Source: Rhododendron vialii
Taxonomy: Eukaryota > Streptophyta > Magnoliopsida > Ericales > Ericaceae
DNA length: 64,000 nucleotides
Direction: 5' to 3'
Assembly: GCF_030253575.1 (NCBI RefSeq)
Contig: NC_080562.1
Coordinates: 28,108,352 to 28,172,351, forward strand
The stretch's first letter is position 1; each line of letters begins with the position of its first letter. Of the stretch, positions 21,091-44,450 are shown one piece after another. The notes below the pieces were generated by a model. That model saw only the letters and a list, made by a program, of their open reading frames with translations. It was not told the origin of the DNA and searched no databases. The position numbers and the translations under genes were made by a program.

Positions 21091-21290
21091 ACAGGCGCCG
21101 GGGAGGGAAATTGTACCGACGGCCGCGCCGGGCCGTCTCCGGCCACCGGATGACCGATCCGAGCCGTTCAAAAATTCTAAAAAAAACAACCGAGGGGGCT
21201 TCTGCGGGAATCAACGGCATCCGAGGTGTGTAAGGTGCTTGATCCGAACACCCTTTTTCAGTGTGTATATATGATCAACGGCATCCGAGA
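21090..21290. repeat. GC-rich repeat, inverted relative to 22565-22745
   Basis: It contains ggccaccggatgaccgatcc, gagccgttcaaaaattct, atcaacggcatccgag and agtgtgtatata. The reverse complement of 22565-22745 carries the same words in the same order. It is probably a transposon-derived repeat family; the type is not clear. Confidence 0.6.
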
Positions 21291-22429: not shown

Positions 22430-22745
22430 AAGAAGAAGATAGGCAGACAACGCGGAAATCGAGTGGGCCAACGCGGAAATCAATGGTATCCGACGTGTGT
22501 AGGTGACCGATCCAAGCACTCCATTTTTGTGTGTATAAACACTAAAAAATGAAGTGTTATACACACAAAAATGGAGTGCTAGGATCGGTCGCCTACACAA
22601 GTCAGATGCCGTTAATTCTCGCTTAGGCCCACTCGATTTTTTTTAAAGAATTTTTGGACGGCTCGGATTAGCCGTCCGGTGGCCGGAGTGGGCTCGGCGG
22701 GCCGTCGGGAATCCGATCGGGATTCCCCGTCGGGAACTGTAACGC
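22430..22745. mobile_element. foldback element with 36-base hairpin core
   Basis: The core is an almost perfect inverted repeat: gcactccatttttgtgtgta on the left (about 22516) and tacacacaaaaatggagtgc on the right (about 22561), with about 11 bases between the arms. Pairing extends imperfectly outward through accgatcc/ggatcggt and cctac/gtagg to about 22465 and 22614. The right side continues into a GC-rich block (gccgtccggtggccggagtg) shared in inverted orientation with 21090-21290. Confidence 0.7.
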
Positions 22746-25249
22746 TACTCATAATTTTGCTTGGTTTGGTTTTCCAGAACCACCTACTCTGTCAGCGCGA
22801 TTCTTTATAAGTTCTCTTTAATTATATTTTTTATTCTTTATAAGTTCTCTTTAATTATATTTTTTATTTTTTTATTTATATTTCTCCACTCATTATTCTA
22901 AAAACTCTCTCAGAATCCAAACTAAACAAAGTCAACTTGGAATACCTTCATTCCCACACAAATCTGAAGATTCCGAATATAGCAACAAGTCCTGGGCATT
23001 CTCCATGAACTTGTGATTGGCGACGTTCATGTAAGTGGTGGAGTTAGAATTTTGATCTGAGGAGGGACAGCTTAATAGACATATTTTTTTATCGGAACAT
23101 ATAATTATTACATCATAATTTTTTTTTGCTTTTTAATACATTAAATTTGTACATTAAAATGATTCTAGCCTAATGCATTTAAAATATACCAATCATATAT
23201 TTTTTTTATCTAGGCTACTTCAATAGTCACGTGTTTATTTTTTATTTATGAAAGAGATTTTTTATCAAATCAAACCAAAATTATAAAAATTATAAGTACA
23301 TATGCAAGAATAATTATTGATAATATTCAAAGTCAAGTATATAAAAAATAAAAATTTCAAAACTCGGGTCTTGGCCCTCTGAGTCCCAACATAGCTCCGC
23401 CATTGGTTGAGGTTGAAAAATAGTAGTATATAAGTCTTTATGTTCAAACTTTAGTCACATAATCTCTGTCTTTCGCAAATAAAACACTACATAATTCCTC
23501 AAAAATGTCATGCGCTACACTTTTAATCATCGCACTGCGTTTGCGTTCTCAATTCCACTCTCGCGTGTTCTCATTGTTTGAGGTATAACTTAAGAGCGTT
23601 TAAACGCTTGCACTCACGCTCTCACTCAAACACTTGTACGCGAACTATGTACTACTTAGTAACTTATTAAAGTGGAGACAGCCCAATTATGGCTGCAGGC
23701 CCATATGATCCGCCCATACAAACCGATGCCGAGGCTTTGACGGGCCCGAGTCTCATAGTCAAAATCCCCACCACCGGACGTGCTTGGCACATGGTCACCC
23801 GCCGCGTCACACCAGCTGGACCTTAACCCACAATCGGCTGGCATCAGAAAAACTTTTTTTTTTTATTTTTTATTTTTCCAATTGTGAGGATCATCCTTTC
23901 AGTTTCACTACATTCTCTGTATCACTCTCAATTGTGATGAGTTTTGACATTTAAGTCTCCTTTGGCCTAAATTATTGCCGAATTTTACCACCACATCGTT
24001 TGTCGTGATGGGATGGATCGAAAAAATATAAAAAATATAAAATAGAATTAAAATAGTTCATATAGGAAGATGGAAAAGTCCTCTGCTAACCTTTTTGTGT
24101 GTTTTTGTCGTTTTATATTATTTTTTTTTCCAACTTTAGACTATTTTTATTACTTTTTTTATTTTTATCATCAAGACGAATGGTGTACTATAAACATTTG
24201 ACCAATATTCTAATAAAAATTAAGAGAAAATAATCAAAAAGATTGTGCTAAAAAATCAAAAATTAATTAGGCCAAAGGGGAGTTTGACCAATTAAAATTT
24301 TTTTTTCTTTAAAAGAGTGAGTATTGTCAATATTTTATTTACCTTTCGACATAATTTTGAAATTAATCATTCGTCTCGCAATAGGAATCAAAAATATGAA
24401 ACAAAAGTCCAGATAAAGTTTCTTTTTAAAACTTTTTTTCGTCTTTAGTGACTTTTTTTTTTTGGGATTTTTGGTCATTATCATTACCATTTAGATTTCG
24501 ATCGTCAATACAAATAGTTAATCCAAAAATTCAACATAAATCTTACAAAATCTTTTAAAAAAATGAGTCAAAGGTCAATGGTACAAGTTGATATCTTATT
24601 AATGGATGAAAAGGACAGGGTCAATTTTTCTTTTCTTTATCTGGCTATGTTAACTTGGGAGTGTTTCCGGTAGTGAAAAATTTGTAGATTTTTATTTGTG
24701 GTTGAAAAGTTGTTGGGTGTTTTCGGTAGTGAATAAATTGTGAAAAATGTTAAGTTATTTCCGATAGTGAATAAGTTGTTGATGAGTTTGTGAGTAGAGT
24801 TACTGTAACAAAAAGTTTTTTTCTTGACAAAAAAACTTTTTGTTAGTAAAACCGAGATGGTAAAATGCTGAAACTTTTTTGTTAGTAAAAACGAAATAGT
24901 AAAATACGTTAAATCATAGCCAATTGAGGGTGGTTGGCCGCAAACAAGATTTTGGGTTGGTCTGCGATGGATGTGTTCATGACTTTCAACACAAAATATG
25001 TGTTGAGTGCACCATGTTAGACTCTTAAACATACATTACTTTGTTTTATACTCGTCTTATGAATCACATTTTTTTTATATAAAACATTGCTTTACCTAAA
25101 AATAAGAAAATCACTGAAGCATAATTACAGGTCTTAAAGTTGTTATGTATATTCCTGAAATATGTGGTCTAAATTTTTTCAATCTATTTGTACTTTTGAA
25201 AAAATAAGGTCAACGGTGTAAAATAGTTTTATTGTGTTCGCAATAAAGC
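22746..25249. other. intergenic; no gene recognised
   Basis: Mostly AT-rich. It has a 36-base tandem duplication at 22801-22872 (unit ttctttataagttctcttta), a GC-rich island at 23685-23845 with no recognisable family, and a set of three spaced repeats around 24660-24785 (gtttccggtagtgaaaaatt and variants). Poly-T runs are frequent. I see nothing that supports a gene. Confidence 0.5.
24655..24790. repeat. three spaced copies of a (t)gttt-cggtagtgaa motif
   Basis: gtttccggtagtgaaaaatt (24663), gttttcggtagtgaataaat (24719) and atttccgatagtgaataagt (24757) occur at roughly 40-55 base spacing, which suggests an old minisatellite or MITE interior. Confidence 0.65.
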
Positions 25250-35750: not shown

Positions 35751-37754
35751 CTACCAGTAATCGCCACAAGAACATTTCCCATTTTTGAAATGGTGAAACC
35801 TACTAGCATCTCTAACAACAATTTCCCGGTTTTTAATCTCCGATATATGCTTGATTGCCGCATGGCAGTCACCACAAACACGCAAATTCTTCATCACCCG
35901 GATTGGAAAACCCTTTGGGGTGTTCATTAGAGCAAATGCAATGGCCAACTTTTCGCTGTGGTGTGTCAAGTGGTTTTCCTTTTCCTCGGCATCCATGTCG
36001 TGCAGAACAGAGCCGGTATCCGGCACATAACCCCTTAGCTTCATTTCCCAAGTCAATTCTTTCAAGTATGAATCAATCTCCATTAACTGTGGATGAGATT
36101 CATCACCCATACAAAATTGGTGAACTTGGTTCTTCACCTCAAACCAGCTGATACCTGGTTCCTTCTTCACCTTCCGGTCTCTCATTGCTTTCCTCACTTC
36201 TGAAACATCCTTCCATCTTTTAGCCGAGGCCTGAGTATTAGACAAAAGCACATACGAAGCTGAATCATGCGGATCAAGCCTAAATACTTCTTCAGCCATC
36301 CTTTTTGCCATATCGGCGTTTTTATAGATTTTACAGGCGGATAATAAAGTCTTCCATATAATAGTATCTGCCTTTACAGTCATAGTTCTTATGAAAGATT
36401 CTGCTTCCTCCAAACGTCCGGATCGCCCAAGGAGATCAACCACACATGTATAATGTTCTAGTCGAGGTTCCAATTTGTGTTTCTCTACCATCATGTCAAA
36501 GATTTCAATTCCTGTATCTTTGAATCCACAGTGACTACAAGAATAAAGCAAACTTAAGAAAGTAACATCATTTGCCTCCAACCCTTCTTGATCCATCCTA
36601 TTGAACAACTCGATGGCTTCCTTTCCCTTCCCATGAAACCCATAAGCAGCAATCATTGAGCTCCACACGACAACATCAGCTTCCTCACTTTCTGAGAAGG
36701 CATTTACAGAATCGTCCAGACACCCACATCTGGAGTACATACTAACTAGTGAACTAATTACACTTGCAACCCTGCTATAGCCAGTTTTAACAGCCTCTGC
36801 ATGAATCTGTTGGCCTTGGCCAAGTGTTGCCAACTCCGAACACGAACTGATTACACTCACAAACGTAATCTTGTCAGGCCTAAAACCTGCTGTTTTCATC
36901 TTATTGTATTGGTCCAAAGCTCCCTCAGAAAACCCGTTTTGAGCTCTTCCCGCGATCAGAGTGTTGTAAGCAACCACACTTGTTATTGGCATTGCCTCAA
37001 TCACTTTCTCTCCTTCTCCCAAATTTCCAGACTTCATGTACATATGAGCCAAAGAATTCCCAACAACCGAATTCAACTCCAACCCGGATTTCACCACGTA
37101 CCCATGGACCTGCCTACCCAAATTCAAATCTTTTGAACCAGCACAACCTCTAAACACACTCCCAAGAGTGAACCTGTCAGGCATAAAACCCAAACCACGC
37201 ATCCGGGAAAACAAACTCAAACCCTCTTCGTTAAACTCGAACTGTGTCAGACCCATAACCATCACATTCCACGTCGCGACATTCCGTTCGGGCATTTCAT
37301 CAAACACCTTGCGCGCGCTTTCCAAATCCCCATTCTGAACAAACCCACCTATCAAAATGTTGCAAGACATGACGTTCCTCCTGGGCATTACATCAAACAG
37401 CTTAAAGGCGATTCTCAGGTCTCCAATTTTGGCGTAAGCGTTGAGGAGATGGTTGGTGACAGACTTGTCTGCGGAACAACCAGATGTGAGGATCAATGAA
37501 TGGAGCTGTTGGGTGAGGGAAAGTGATTGGGTTTGAATGCATGATTTGAGGAGGAGAGGGAAGAAGAGAGGTGGGTCTGACCATATATGTGATCGGAAGG
37601 CTTCGAATGCCTCTTTGAGGCGGCCTCTGGAGCAGAGGTTTGTGAATGCGGTGGGTGCTTCGGAGGTGTTTGTGGTGGAGAGACAACGAGGGGTTGGAGA
37701 GTGCTGTGGAATGGAGTAGCTGAGAGGCCTAAGATGACAAGAGTACTTACCCAT
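35751..37754 (-). CDS. DYW-type PLS pentatricopeptide repeat protein, At2g41080-like
   Basis: A single-exon 667-residue PPR protein of the PLS-DYW class. Such proteins bind one RNA site in mitochondria or chloroplasts and edit a C to U. The first 30-35 residues (MGKYSCHLRPLSYSIPQHSP...) are rich in Ser, Pro and basic residues and look like an organelle transit peptide. PPR repeats run from about 65 to 480 (for example ARKVFDEMPERNVATWNVMV, LTLGSVFRGCAG-type L motifs, IAAYGFHGKGKEAIELFNRM). E/E+ motifs follow (KEPGISWFEVKNQVHQFCMG), and the DYW deaminase domain ends in GKCSCGDYW with the zinc motif HSEKLA and CGDCHA intact. The closest protein I recall is Arabidopsis At2g41080, which matches over nearly the whole length. 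The editing target cannot be read from the sequence. Confidence 0.95.
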   Translation of the reverse strand: MGKYSCHLRPLSYSIPQHSPTPRCLSTTNTSEAPTAFTNLCSRGRLKEAFEAFRSHIWSDPPLFFPLLLKSCIQTQSLSLTQQLHSLILTSGCSADKSVTNHLLNAYAKIGDLRIAFKLFDVMPRRNVMSCNILIGGFVQNGDLESARKVFDEMPERNVATWNVMVMGLTQFEFNEEGLSLFSRMRGLGFMPDRFTLGSVFRGCAGSKDLNLGRQVHGYVVKSGLELNSVVGNSLAHMYMKSGNLGEGEKVIEAMPITSVVAYNTLIAGRAQNGFSEGALDQYNKMKTAGFRPDKITFVSVISSCSELATLGQGQQIHAEAVKTGYSRVASVISSLVSMYSRCGCLDDSVNAFSESEEADVVVWSSMIAAYGFHGKGKEAIELFNRMDQEGLEANDVTFLSLLYSCSHCGFKDTGIEIFDMMVEKHKLEPRLEHYTCVVDLLGRSGRLEEAESFIRTMTVKADTIIWKTLLSACKIYKNADMAKRMAEEVFRLDPHDSASYVLLSNTQASAKRWKDVSEVRKAMRDRKVKKEPGISWFEVKNQVHQFCMGDESHPQLMEIDSYLKELTWEMKLRGYVPDTGSVLHDMDAEEKENHLTHHSEKLAIAFALMNTPKGFPIRVMKNLRVCGDCHAAIKHISEIKNREIVVRDASRFHHFKNGKCSCGDYW

Positions 37755-40925: not shown

Positions 40926-41973
40926 AACAACGCACATAATTTTAACATCTACCCACAGCAATATGAGTTGTATAAGACATGGATATCACGAAAAAAATCC
41001 TTGAGGCAAAGAGCTTAGCGCTACCATTTCATGATAAACTGATCCAGGTAAAACTCTGATGGAAGACAATCCTACAAAATTCAGATGAAAAAGTCACAAG
41101 ACATTAAGGGAATCGCAACAACAGTCTAGGGAACTTCAAATAAGCGCATCTTGGAATTCCATAACGAACCAGGTTAATATCATTAGATAATTACAGTTCA
41201 AAAAATGAGGCCTTTTCCATGTATGTATGCACACAAAAGCCAGAAACTTAGCAAAATGGTTAATCTATGGTGATATCTTACACAAAAACCATGGAAGAAC
41301 TCAAAAAAGATATATTGTATGCTACATCTTCCAGGTATATATTGCATCTTTGCAAGGGATCGACAGCTTGCAGAATGGAGTAATTATACTCAAAAGTATG
41401 CAACACCATAACGCGTAACTGATTTGTTGACCAAATTCATTAGCACTCAATATTTTCGTGAAACAAACATTAAACTTTACCTCCACTCGTAGTCTTTTGG
41501 AATCGAGGACTCCATCAACATAATTAAGCTGACCTGACAGCCCAAAAGTCTTGCCTGCATATGCCAAACCCTAATCAGTCAAGTTCAAAAGAAGTTTCTC
41601 ATGGTGTTGCCGATTTAAAGCGGCATCGGCAAAATAAAGTTGGATTATCAACACAAGAAGGTAAAATCTCTCCTATCAGTAAGCAAACTACATAAGCTCA
41701 ACATTAATTAATCAATTAACAGAAAAAGAAAAAGTAAATAAAGATCGGAGTTTACTTCTTCAATTCAACAGTTCAAAAGAGAAACCCTAGAAGGCGATCT
41801 CATGCAAACATTTTTTTGGAATAGGGGAGGAAAAACCCATACCTAACGTAAGATCGTCTCGGAAGCTCGCGTCACTTCCCAATTCTTCCTTTCCTCATCA
41901 CCTGGAAAAGTCCCACGCCTCCGCTACCTTACAAAATTCGGGCTGTGATCTCCAACTGCTGGTGGTTGTCGGT
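40926..41973. other. spacer with exon-like scraps
   Basis: On the minus strand, 41485-41551 is bounded by a good acceptor (tatgcag) and donor (gtaaag), and 41770-41950 has 5'UTR-like character with a donor-like gttaggtatg. No protein family could be recognised in either, so no gene is called. Confidence 0.35.
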
Positions 41974-42456
41974 GTTGGAGAAAATTTAATTCAACATTAG
42001 TTAGTTACGGAAAATAACATACTACTAATATTTTGGAGGAAAATTGGGACAAAATCAAGTCTAATTGGTTATATGTGTGCCGAATAAGTAAAGGCAGTAA
42101 TTATACCGTTAGTGCTCCTAGACTCAAGGAGACTAAGTCACTGGGTTCAACTATACCTCTTTAACACATCCACGTAATTAATATAAAAGGTATGTGATAC
42201 ATAATCCTTCAATAGCAAATCTTAAATAGATATATGAAAGTAAAACATAAAATTAGTTCAACAATTTCCTCGGACTCTGGAGATCCCTGTGCACTATGCT
42301 CTCCTTTACCTCCCACTCCTTGTAAATTCTCCACCTCCTCCTCAACCTCCATCTAATGATGGTCCTTCTGCTCAACCCAGTGGATGTTTTTCTCCCAAAA
42401 CATGGTTAAAATGGGTATCAATAACGTTTAGTGTATTTTTCACAACCCCCAATACC

Positions 42457-42905
42457 GTCCATTTGGACTAGAGAATGTGGACTTGTTGGAGTACCTCAGC
42501 ATGCACTTCTCATGCCAGATCGTCGCCGCTTTGACCAGGGGCACTTTTTGACTGCATCTCTGCTAGCGGAAACAATACATTCTCGACACACGGTAGTGAA
42601 GATGTCGCCATGGTAGAGGAAGAGGCTGTAGGTGACATCAAGGGGGCTGCTGCCAGTGGTGAAGTTGAAAAATCCGATAGAGGTGTTGGAGTTGAAGGAG
42701 AGAACGGATAGGAGGTTCTAGAGGTTTGCTTGGTAGGTGCTGTTTGATTGTGGTCCCAGATATGCTGGCAGTCCATGAATAAAGGTTCAGCTTTGATCAT
42801 TGGGATTGGGATTGGGATGAGGCCGACGAAGCAAATTGAGTAAATAAACAAACAGAGCCTTTTTGGGCATTTGTAGGGCATATTATGCATTGTAGAGCCG
42901 AGCAC
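42457..42905 (-). pseudogene. DUF26 (Gnk2) secreted/receptor-kinase ectodomain pseudogene, left arm
   Basis: On the minus strand this starts with a good signal peptide (KRLCLFIYSICFVGLIPIPI, then KAEPLFMDC), as in cysteine-rich receptor kinases (CRKs) or cysteine-rich repeat secreted proteins. It continues with HIWDHN and then, in shifted frames, an NSTYQANL-type segment with an in-frame TAG and the C-terminal half of a Gnk2 domain. A deletion of about 14 bases after HIWDHN relative to the right arm breaks the frame. Downstream on the same strand, TLNVIDTHFNHVLGEK recalls the N..RFN..LGE segment that follows the first Gnk2 repeat. It is dead, but the leader makes it the more complete 5' end of the two copies. 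Confidence 0.8.
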
Positions 42906-42918
42906 AACTAATTAATTA

Positions 42919-43310
42919 CATATCTGGGACCACAATCTTTACTTACGCCCTAAACAGCACCAAGCAAACCTCAACAACCTCCTGTCCGTTCTCTCCTCCA
43001 ACTCCAACGCCTCTTTAAGATTTTTCAACTTCACCGCCCGCAGCAGCCCCCCTGACGTCGCCTATGGCCTCTTCCTTTGCCGCGAAGACGTCTCTGTGGC
43101 CATGTGTCAGGAATGTCTCGTATCCGCTAGCAGAGATGTAGTCGATAAGTGCTCCAGGTCGAAGCGGGTCATGATTTGGCATGAGAAGTGCATGCTGAGG
43201 TACTCCAACAAGTCCACCTTCTCTGGTCCGGATGGACCGTAAACCTCAACAACCTCCTACCCGTTTTAATGAAGTTTTGGGAGAGGTAATTCTTGAAATA
43301 ATTTTATGTT
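42919..43310 (+). pseudogene. DUF26 (Gnk2) pseudogene, right arm
   Basis: From 42967 to 43242 a clean frame reads NLNNLLSVLSSNSNASLRFF, then VAYGLFLCREDVSVAMCQEC and KCSRSKRVMIWHEKCMLRYS, ending in TAA. This is most of one Gnk2 domain with the C-x8-C-x2-C cysteines in place. It lacks a signal peptide, a short deletion before NLNNLL (absent from the left arm) shifts the upstream frame, and a second block around 43262-43287 (RFNEVLGE in another frame) is followed by a donor-like gtaatt. Gnk2 domains in live proteins bind mannose or act in apoplastic defence and ROS signalling. Confidence 0.82.
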
Positions 43311-43622
43311 TTACTTTCATATATTTATTTAAGATTTGCTATTGATGGATTATTTATCACATACCTTTTATATTAATTACGTGGGTTTGTAAAGGACGTA
43401 TATACATAATAGTAAGAGATCATGGGAGAAATCATAGGGGTTGGTTGAAACCACTGACTTAGTCTCCTTGATACTAGGAGCACTAACGGTAATTATTGCC
43501 TTTACTTATTATTCGGCACACATATAACCAATTAGACTTGATTTTCTCCTAATTTTCCTCCAAAATATCGTTAGTATATTTTTATCCCTAACTAACTAAT
43601 GTTGCATTAAATTTTCTCCAAC

Positions 43623-43950
43623 AATCTAAGGAACAATACACCTCCTTTCTGCACTGCGTTGACTGGTGTTCCTTCCCTAAGATAAAACGACCATCGAGTT
43701 TGCTTTGTGTAGTGAAGCAAAAGCTCACAAACCTGTAGTTGCCTGACACTCCAAAATCACTTGTCAAATATATAATCATAGCAAGGTTTATCATTGATGT
43801 TATCGGAGGTTTTCTGGAGCAAGAATTGAACTACAGGAGAAGAAAGATTATTTCACTTGCTCTGTCTTTTTCCGTTGGAATGGGTAAGAGGAGTAAAGGC
43901 TTTTGTTTTCCAGTGGGACAAGAAATTGCTGGTATATGTGTATGTATAGG

Positions 43951-43990
<40 letters not shown>

Positions 43991-44450
43991 TTTCCAAAAG
44001 TTAAGAAACCACCATGTGGTGCATGTAGTTAATAGCCTCCTGATGATAAGGGGGGAGTAATGAGGTCAGACAATGAATGAGCACCGCCCGCTATAAAATC
44101 AGCATGGGTATGCAACGGCATCCAACGAGTATGGATATGGGAATCCAACGGCTCTCAAAACAATTAAAAGATGGAATTGAAAATTTATACCAAGAAACCA
44201 GTATAGGAAAATAAAATTTAAATTACTTACAACAGTCCGCAATGCCGTCGAGGCTGATCTACGGAACTTGGAGTTGTTTTGTGCAGATGTCTGCCGGATT
44301 GGGCCAGTTCTCCAGCGGCTGTATTGAAGCCGCAGAGAAAGAAAGAGAACCTAGTAACAGAGAGAGAGACAGATGATTTTTTCAATCTCTTTTCTTTAAA
44401 CAGAGTAAGTCGAGTTCGGGGGGGTGGGGGGGTGGGTTTGTGTGGTGGTT
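43623..44450. other. spacer with CA microsatellite and G-rich tract
   Basis: No gene was recognised. A CA run lies at 43953-43988 and a G-rich stretch at about 44418-44436. An open stretch at 44279-44506 has no family. Confidence 0.5.
43953..43988. repeat. (CA)n microsatellite
   Basis: An uninterrupted CA run of about 36 bases. Confidence 0.97.

Follow-up and report, generated by a model that had tools for sequence, protein, structure and literature searches.

A near-palindrome formed by two head-to-head remnants of a CRK gene lies within the 64,000-nucleotide stretch of Rhododendron vialii DNA analysed in this study (the window; C6:28108352-28172351). The locus raises the question of whether the inverted pair arose in place, by duplication of a resident gene, or was brought there from elsewhere. 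We addressed this by comparing the window with its own genome (532.6 Mb, 13 contigs). The coordinates of the identified features are collected in Table 1.

Structure of the palindrome

The inverted repeat is close to the 1.65 kb originally predicted (41973-43623). Its arms are 88% identical over 636 aligned columns (560 identical positions; blastn, two main matches with E values of 1.1e-89 and 9.6e-78), and they are separated by the expected loop of 154 bp. In the left CRK copy this loop forms the 5' part and encodes a putative signal peptide, recognised by eye, which agrees with its previous reading as the signal-peptide region of that copy. The description of the arms as two dead DUF26 copies in head-to-head orientation was also borne out, as each of them carries a broken CRK first exon with a DUF26 domain (PF01657). 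The right copy matched PF01657 with 75.3 bits (cut-off 25), its first ~14 residues being out of frame owing to a 4-bp deletion (judged by eye from alignments), and the left copy with 42.9 bits and one TAG. The solved chain nearest to the right copy is that of cysteine-rich repeat secretory protein 2 (6gre). The full CRK architecture (signal peptide, two DUF26 domains and kinase) is absent from the arms, which contain pieces of exon 1 only, with frameshifts and stops.

The lesions said to distinguish the two arms, i.e. a 14-bp gap and an extra block in the left arm and a 4-bp gap in the right one, were all present. The extra block belongs to a larger repeat: of its five fetched copies, the other four align to L016 over ~1.2 kb with 87-89% identity. 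The short segment of the right arm that occurs twice (43241-43265 vs 42966-42990) is 92% identical between its copies. Comparison of the arms by region revealed 91.3% identity for the outer arms (289 columns) and 83.5% for the DUF26 part (310 columns).

At E <= 1, the outer arms (~290 bp) matched only the C6 and C10 loci and a 64-bp piece on C5 (L025; C5:674348-674410, 83% identity). No gene was recognised around L025 among frames of at least 80 aa. The CRK exon tail and the first 25-50 bp of CRK intron 1 align to the arm; over a longer stretch of intron 1, five of ten loci scored above the best of 20 shuffles and five did not, with a query that included the exon tail, which raises the score. 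Beyond ~43310, the outer arms may thus be the remainder of a CRK intron or have another source. The outer-arm distances (K 0.085-0.146) do not agree with the claim of a young locus, since they do not indicate an especially recent origin. With rates of 1.3e-8 and 7e-9 per year, they correspond to 3.3-5.6 My and 6.0-10.5 My, respectively.

Table 1. Features of the palindrome, its carrier element and the insertion site (positions in the window)
Feature	Position	Strand	Remarks
Left flank	41852-41972		87% identity to C7:38632134-38632254
Left target-site duplication, GTCGG	41968-41972		C7 empty-site paralogue
Whole inserted element, 2,262 bp	41973-44234	+	TGTTGGAG...TTACAACA; probable solo LTR with inserted palindrome
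Left arm (C6A)	41973-42764	-	first ~12-18 bp of the family, then ~280 bp of outer arm, inserted block and CRK exon 1 containing DUF26 (minus strand)
119-bp fragment of a larger dispersed repeat	42272-42390		left arm only
Broken DUF26 (PF01657) coding sequence, left copy	42453-42745	-	frameshifts and TAG
Loop, 5' part of left CRK copy	42765-42918	-	matches CRK loci L010 and L014
Right arm (C6B)	42919-43623	+	CRK exon 1 with its tail and the intron-1 donor, followed by the outer arm and the family 5' end in inverted orientation
Open frame of right copy, DUF26 (PF01657)	42919-43243	+	75.3 bits; 5' truncated, TAA at end
Second copy (25 nt) of 42966-42990	43241-43265	+	replaces part of exon tail
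CRK exon 1 (3' end) with the beginning of intron 1 (GAG|GTAATT)	43259-43310	+	kept
Element 3' part	43624-44234	+	common in pieces to dispersed family
Right target-site duplication, GTCCG	44235-44239		4/5 bases match the left one
Right flank	44239-44373		79% identity to C7:38632254-38632377

Insertion sites and the carrier family

The palindrome constitutes 73% of a 2,262-bp insertion. The inverted repeat stops at 43623, and the inserted unit continues to 44234; its termini, TGTTG at 41973 and CAACA up to 44234, represent a TG...CA pair with a short inverted repeat. Both flanks of the insertion adjoin each other on C7 (38632134-38632377), which defines a paralogous empty site at C7:38632254 that lacks the segment 41973-44238. 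The target duplication on C6 is imperfect (GTCGG/GTCCG, 4/5). Motifs identified by eye in the 3' part of the element are TATAAAA (44092-44098) and AATAAA (44210-44215). A 96-bp segment of this part (43988-44083) has 11 further occurrences on C9 (32.07-32.79 Mb), as if tracking a tandem array, and three on other sequences.

The sequence on the right of the insertion (44239-44373) is leader-like, pyrimidine-rich and conserved with C7. The PPR gene at 35751-37754 was considered as the owner of this leader and rejected, as it had no match at the C7 empty site among the matches listed (66 of 1237 candidates scored); its closest paralogue among these matches lies on C9. This paralogue (C9:37364225-37366222) is 89% identical and contains three stop codons. 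Four further PPR matches were listed within C3:29716930-29935016, each of 1,587 bp, spaced by 58-80 kb and with one TGA in two of them.

The search of the genome also revealed that the inverted structure is present once more, on C10. The C6 and C10 loci are homologous over the palindrome and up to 44234-44238, where the similarity stops (with an interruption at ~43949-44087), and the left-type arm on C10 has lost ~15 bp just inside its end. Because this diverged copy sits in a different flank, an assembly artefact is an unlikely source of the palindrome. The C10 element (2978689-2980982) is bordered on each side by GAAGG, and joining its flanks with one GAAGG yields a sequence that is in frame over the junction (...TDEFKGVMEEGKAIELKNRQWKLYT...). 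The interrupted gene is presumably BCS1-like. The upstream part of its left-flank exon matched PF14363 (AAA_assoc, 54.1 bits) in another frame, so the host gene either contains an additional lesion or had been defective before the insertion; the 71-residue piece downstream of the insertion gave no Pfam match. Synteny of the two regions was considered and rejected: when the window was compared with 100 kb of C10, the matches besides the element were scattered and short, and looked like dispersed repeats; LRR-kinase similarity of 39-44% was seen by tblastx among the matches listed. Two window segments (21104-21273 and 22456-22753) are repeats, perhaps MITE-like, with several copies in both orientations within these 100 kb, and a separate 397-bp inverted repeat with 78.6% identity (C10:2977369-2977765; L009 1370-1766) lies ~0.9 kb from the C10 element.

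Thus, one palindrome-bearing unit was inserted at two unrelated places. The empty site on C7 and the C10 copy with its own duplication indicate that an element carried the palindrome along when it moved, and we have very little doubt that this element is mobile.

The ends of the unit are those of a dispersed family. Its complete 679-bp member L056 (C7:39972603-39973281), bordered by GTATC on each side, starts with CGTTGGAGAAAA, compared with TGTTGGAGAAAA in the window element, and has the same ends. L056 was the only one of five relatives fetched together that contained both ends; L054 and L058 match near the 3' end only, and L055 and L057 have no match there. The inner module, a stretch to the right of the palindrome, is also present at other places; in a search with the whole element, the homology of all three fetched relatives with this module begins 2-8 bp past the palindrome edge. 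The last ~145 bp of the element were found at three further places beyond C10, and all four non-self matches stop at 44234, even though the query was longer. A search with L056 (40 of 122 candidates scored) revealed, among the matches listed, that (i) 27 of 41 rows begin at the same 5' base, (ii) most rows span only about the first 272 bp, (iii) three other places reach the 3' end and (iv) three same-strand pairs of family members lie 3.1, 3.9 and 4.9 kb apart (C6:14893263-14896612, C5:30790775-30794888 and C6:34328355-34333452), which suggests that these are LTR pairs. The last 125 bp of L056 are present at six places besides its own, five of which end at the last base of the element and one two bases before it.

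In all three insertions the target duplication has a length of 5 bp (GTCGG/GTCCG, GAAGG and GTATC), which lies within the 4-6 bp of LTR retrotransposons, the C6 pair agreeing at 4/5 bases. The exact tRNA-Met primer-site pattern was absent from all three presumed LTR intervals; this search used the exact pattern only, with 100 of 136 places listed, C5 and C6 among them. No direct repeat was found at the two ends of the window element, which means that a complete LTR retrotransposon is not present at this site. We regard it as likely that the dispersed family is the LTR of a retrotransposon and, judging from its ends, duplications and family matches, the window element is probably such an LTR.

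The original prediction had assumed a local inverted gene duplication, i.e. a CRK gene duplicated head-to-head in place and possibly forming a young MIRNA or siRNA locus. Such an origin of MIRNA genes from inverted duplications of gene pieces has been reported (PMC3237417), and the arms of the C6 copy retain perfect helices of 41, 37, 30 and 26 nt and have at least one exact 21-mer in common with 8 of 18 fetched CRK loci of C13. However, the insertion with its target duplication and empty site, together with the second copy on C10, contradicts an event in place; moreover, PF01657 matches in the window are confined to the two arms (150 of 188 genome-wide candidates scored), and Rfam gave no match. 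We therefore find a local origin extremely unlikely. A plain segmental duplication between C10 and C6, without transposition, would explain why the homology covers 611 bp past the palindrome, but that stretch ends at a family terminus, and the two loci differ in their 5-bp duplications and have unrelated flanks on either side, which makes this the least likely of the explanations.

The carrier could also be a DNA transposon of the foldback, Pack-MULE or MITE-like type, with the inverted arms within its terminal repeats. Elements of this kind typically possess long inverted repeats and capture genes; moreover, the left arm extends exactly to one terminus, and the two real ends have 13 of 17 bases in common as an inverted repeat (counted by eye). 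Nevertheless, the unit continues for 611 bp past the right arm, and the arms are thus not its two terminal repeats. Mutator elements generate target duplications of 9-11 bp, in contrast to the 5 bp found in three of three insertions, and the same-strand pairs of family members also argue against this class, which we consider unlikely. The reading that we hold with considerable confidence is that the palindrome is the cargo of a mobile, probably retrotransposon-derived element carrying an inverted CRK pair.

Assembly, descent and decay of the inverted pair

From its left end, the element consists of the first ~12-18 bases of the family, the palindrome, the same first bases inverted, and the family again from ~base 145 of L056. 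The far end of the right arm coincides with the terminal base of the family; the template of the inversion may therefore have been a linear element end, e.g. extrachromosomal cDNA, or a self-insertion. The CRK exon-intron boundary is kept (GAG|GTAATT, about 43283-43291), hence unspliced sequence was captured. In the order of events that we infer, an element of the dispersed family with TGTTGG...CAACA ends, most likely a retrotransposon LTR, would have served as the carrier and acquired, close to its 5' end, unspliced CRK exon 1 together with the beginning of intron 1. The segment between the family 5' terminus and the CRK fragment would then have been turned into an inverted repeat, which stands in the place of ~125 bp in L056. 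The finished element inserted at least twice, on C10 (inside the presumed BCS1-like gene) and on C6 (in the window), with its own 5-bp duplication in each case. Both copies have degenerated since, and in the window the CRK part of the left arm has suffered heavy CpG loss.

The resemblance of the arms to CRK genes reflects true CRK ancestry, as seen in the genome matches and in a tree that combined 18 loci of C13 with the four arms of the C6 and C10 copies. In this tree the arms and L037 formed a clade with a support of 100 (66 for the four arms without L037); the two right-type arms grouped together (88), and the left-type arms did not form a clade. L037 (C13:24345179-24345562), an isolated CRK pseudogene with one TAG and a long branch, is by its sequence the nearest trace of the donor lineage. 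Of the site patterns among the four arms, 9 united arms of the same type (A+A/B+B), 7 united arms of the same locus and 1 was otherwise, which weakly points to an inversion before the split of the C6 and C10 copies; the common loop orientation and common arm ends point in the same direction. With regard to gene conversion between the arms, these counts (9 vs 7 vs 1) favoured neither reading clearly.

Transitions in the CRK part of the left arm in the window affected 20 of 53 CpG sites, compared with 12 of 259 non-CpG sites. The CpG values were 9/56 for the right arm and 11/55 and 4/47 for the C10 arms, and non-CpG transitions in the four arms together amounted to 57/984; in 17 C13 genes the corresponding numbers were 116/946 (CpG) and 383/4619 (other sites). 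All these counts refer to an ancestor defined ad hoc as the majority of genes and arms. The pattern fits past CG methylation, which would have affected the left arm of the window most of all and one C10 arm (4/47) hardly. After removal of CpG sites, the exon was still less similar than the outer arm in all four comparisons; the difference was 0.2 points in one of them and 4-11 points in the other three (88.7 vs 92.4% for the window arms; 82.1 vs 93.2, 87.5 vs 87.7 and 79.7 vs 88.2% for the others), so CpG loss is only part of the reason for the lower exon identity. With regard to selection on the right-copy open frame, its N/S counts agreed with the neutral expectation, as did those of the four C13 genes tested, and with the crude ancestor used these counts do not discriminate.

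Hairpin potential and known systems

In the predicted folds of the palindrome, arm-to-arm pairs account for 573 of 660 pairs in one strand and for 465 of 649 in its complement. The longest perfect helix of the C10 copy has a length of 19 nt. The helices that remain, together with the 21-mers common to the arms and CRK genes, make the production of siRNAs from the hairpin mechanically possible. A search of Rfam gave no matches at E <= 1 within 41900-43700. The presumed promoter of the element (TATAAAA at 44092, by eye) faces away from the palindrome. Transcription of the hairpin would thus depend on read-through, for which the leader-like sequence at 44239-44373 would be the simplest source, on the minus strand. 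The element seems to be a decaying passenger, most likely without a present-day coding role; if it has any effect, this would stem from read-through transcripts that include the hairpin or from the spread of silencing to a neighbour. It is also conceivable that the element acts as a mobile hairpin, which lands in host leaders (perhaps on C6, where leader-like sequence is present on both sides of it) and yields siRNAs from host promoters that damp the C13 CRK cluster in trans. We consider this very unlikely; if true, silencing of a receptor family would spread by transposition.

Gene capture by retroelements is a known phenomenon; the present case differs in that the captured piece forms an inverted pair. 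LTR retrotransposons known to have captured plant genes include Bs1 of maize, Rider of tomato and TRIMs (PMC13317346). As described there, a fragment of a host gene is carried and re-inserted by the retroelement, which would also be the case for the element analysed here. In contrast to these examples, the fragment in the window is present as an inverted pair, close to the 5' end within the repeat; it keeps an intron start and sits on the side facing away from the presumed transcript of the element. The MIRNA and siRNA loci derived from inverted duplications likewise contain two inverted gene pieces with the potential for a long hairpin (PMC3237417), but the window pair is carried by a mobile element, and its hairpin is a predicted one that matches no known precursor in Rfam. 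Captured gene pieces in maize Helitrons, Pack-MULEs and Sireviruses have been described as siRNA reservoirs and, similarly to the arms, could silence their donor genes (PMC13317346). Differently from these reservoirs, there are two copies only in the present case, both heavily decayed, and the donor lineage is known through its relatives. No inverted captured gene pair inside an LTR was recognised among the literature entries listed, by title or start of abstract, which is not a proof of absence. Foldback and Pack-MULE elements combine long inverted repeats with gene pieces, as does the window element; the latter, however, has 5-bp duplications and one arm ending inside the element.

The target duplications and empty sites demonstrate that inverted gene duplications are able to move, and apparent in-place inversions may therefore have been imported. 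The right arm, which ends on the terminal base of the family, hints at an inversion at the end of a linear element. Should the palindrome give rise to small RNAs, a mobile locus could silence a family of receptor genes.
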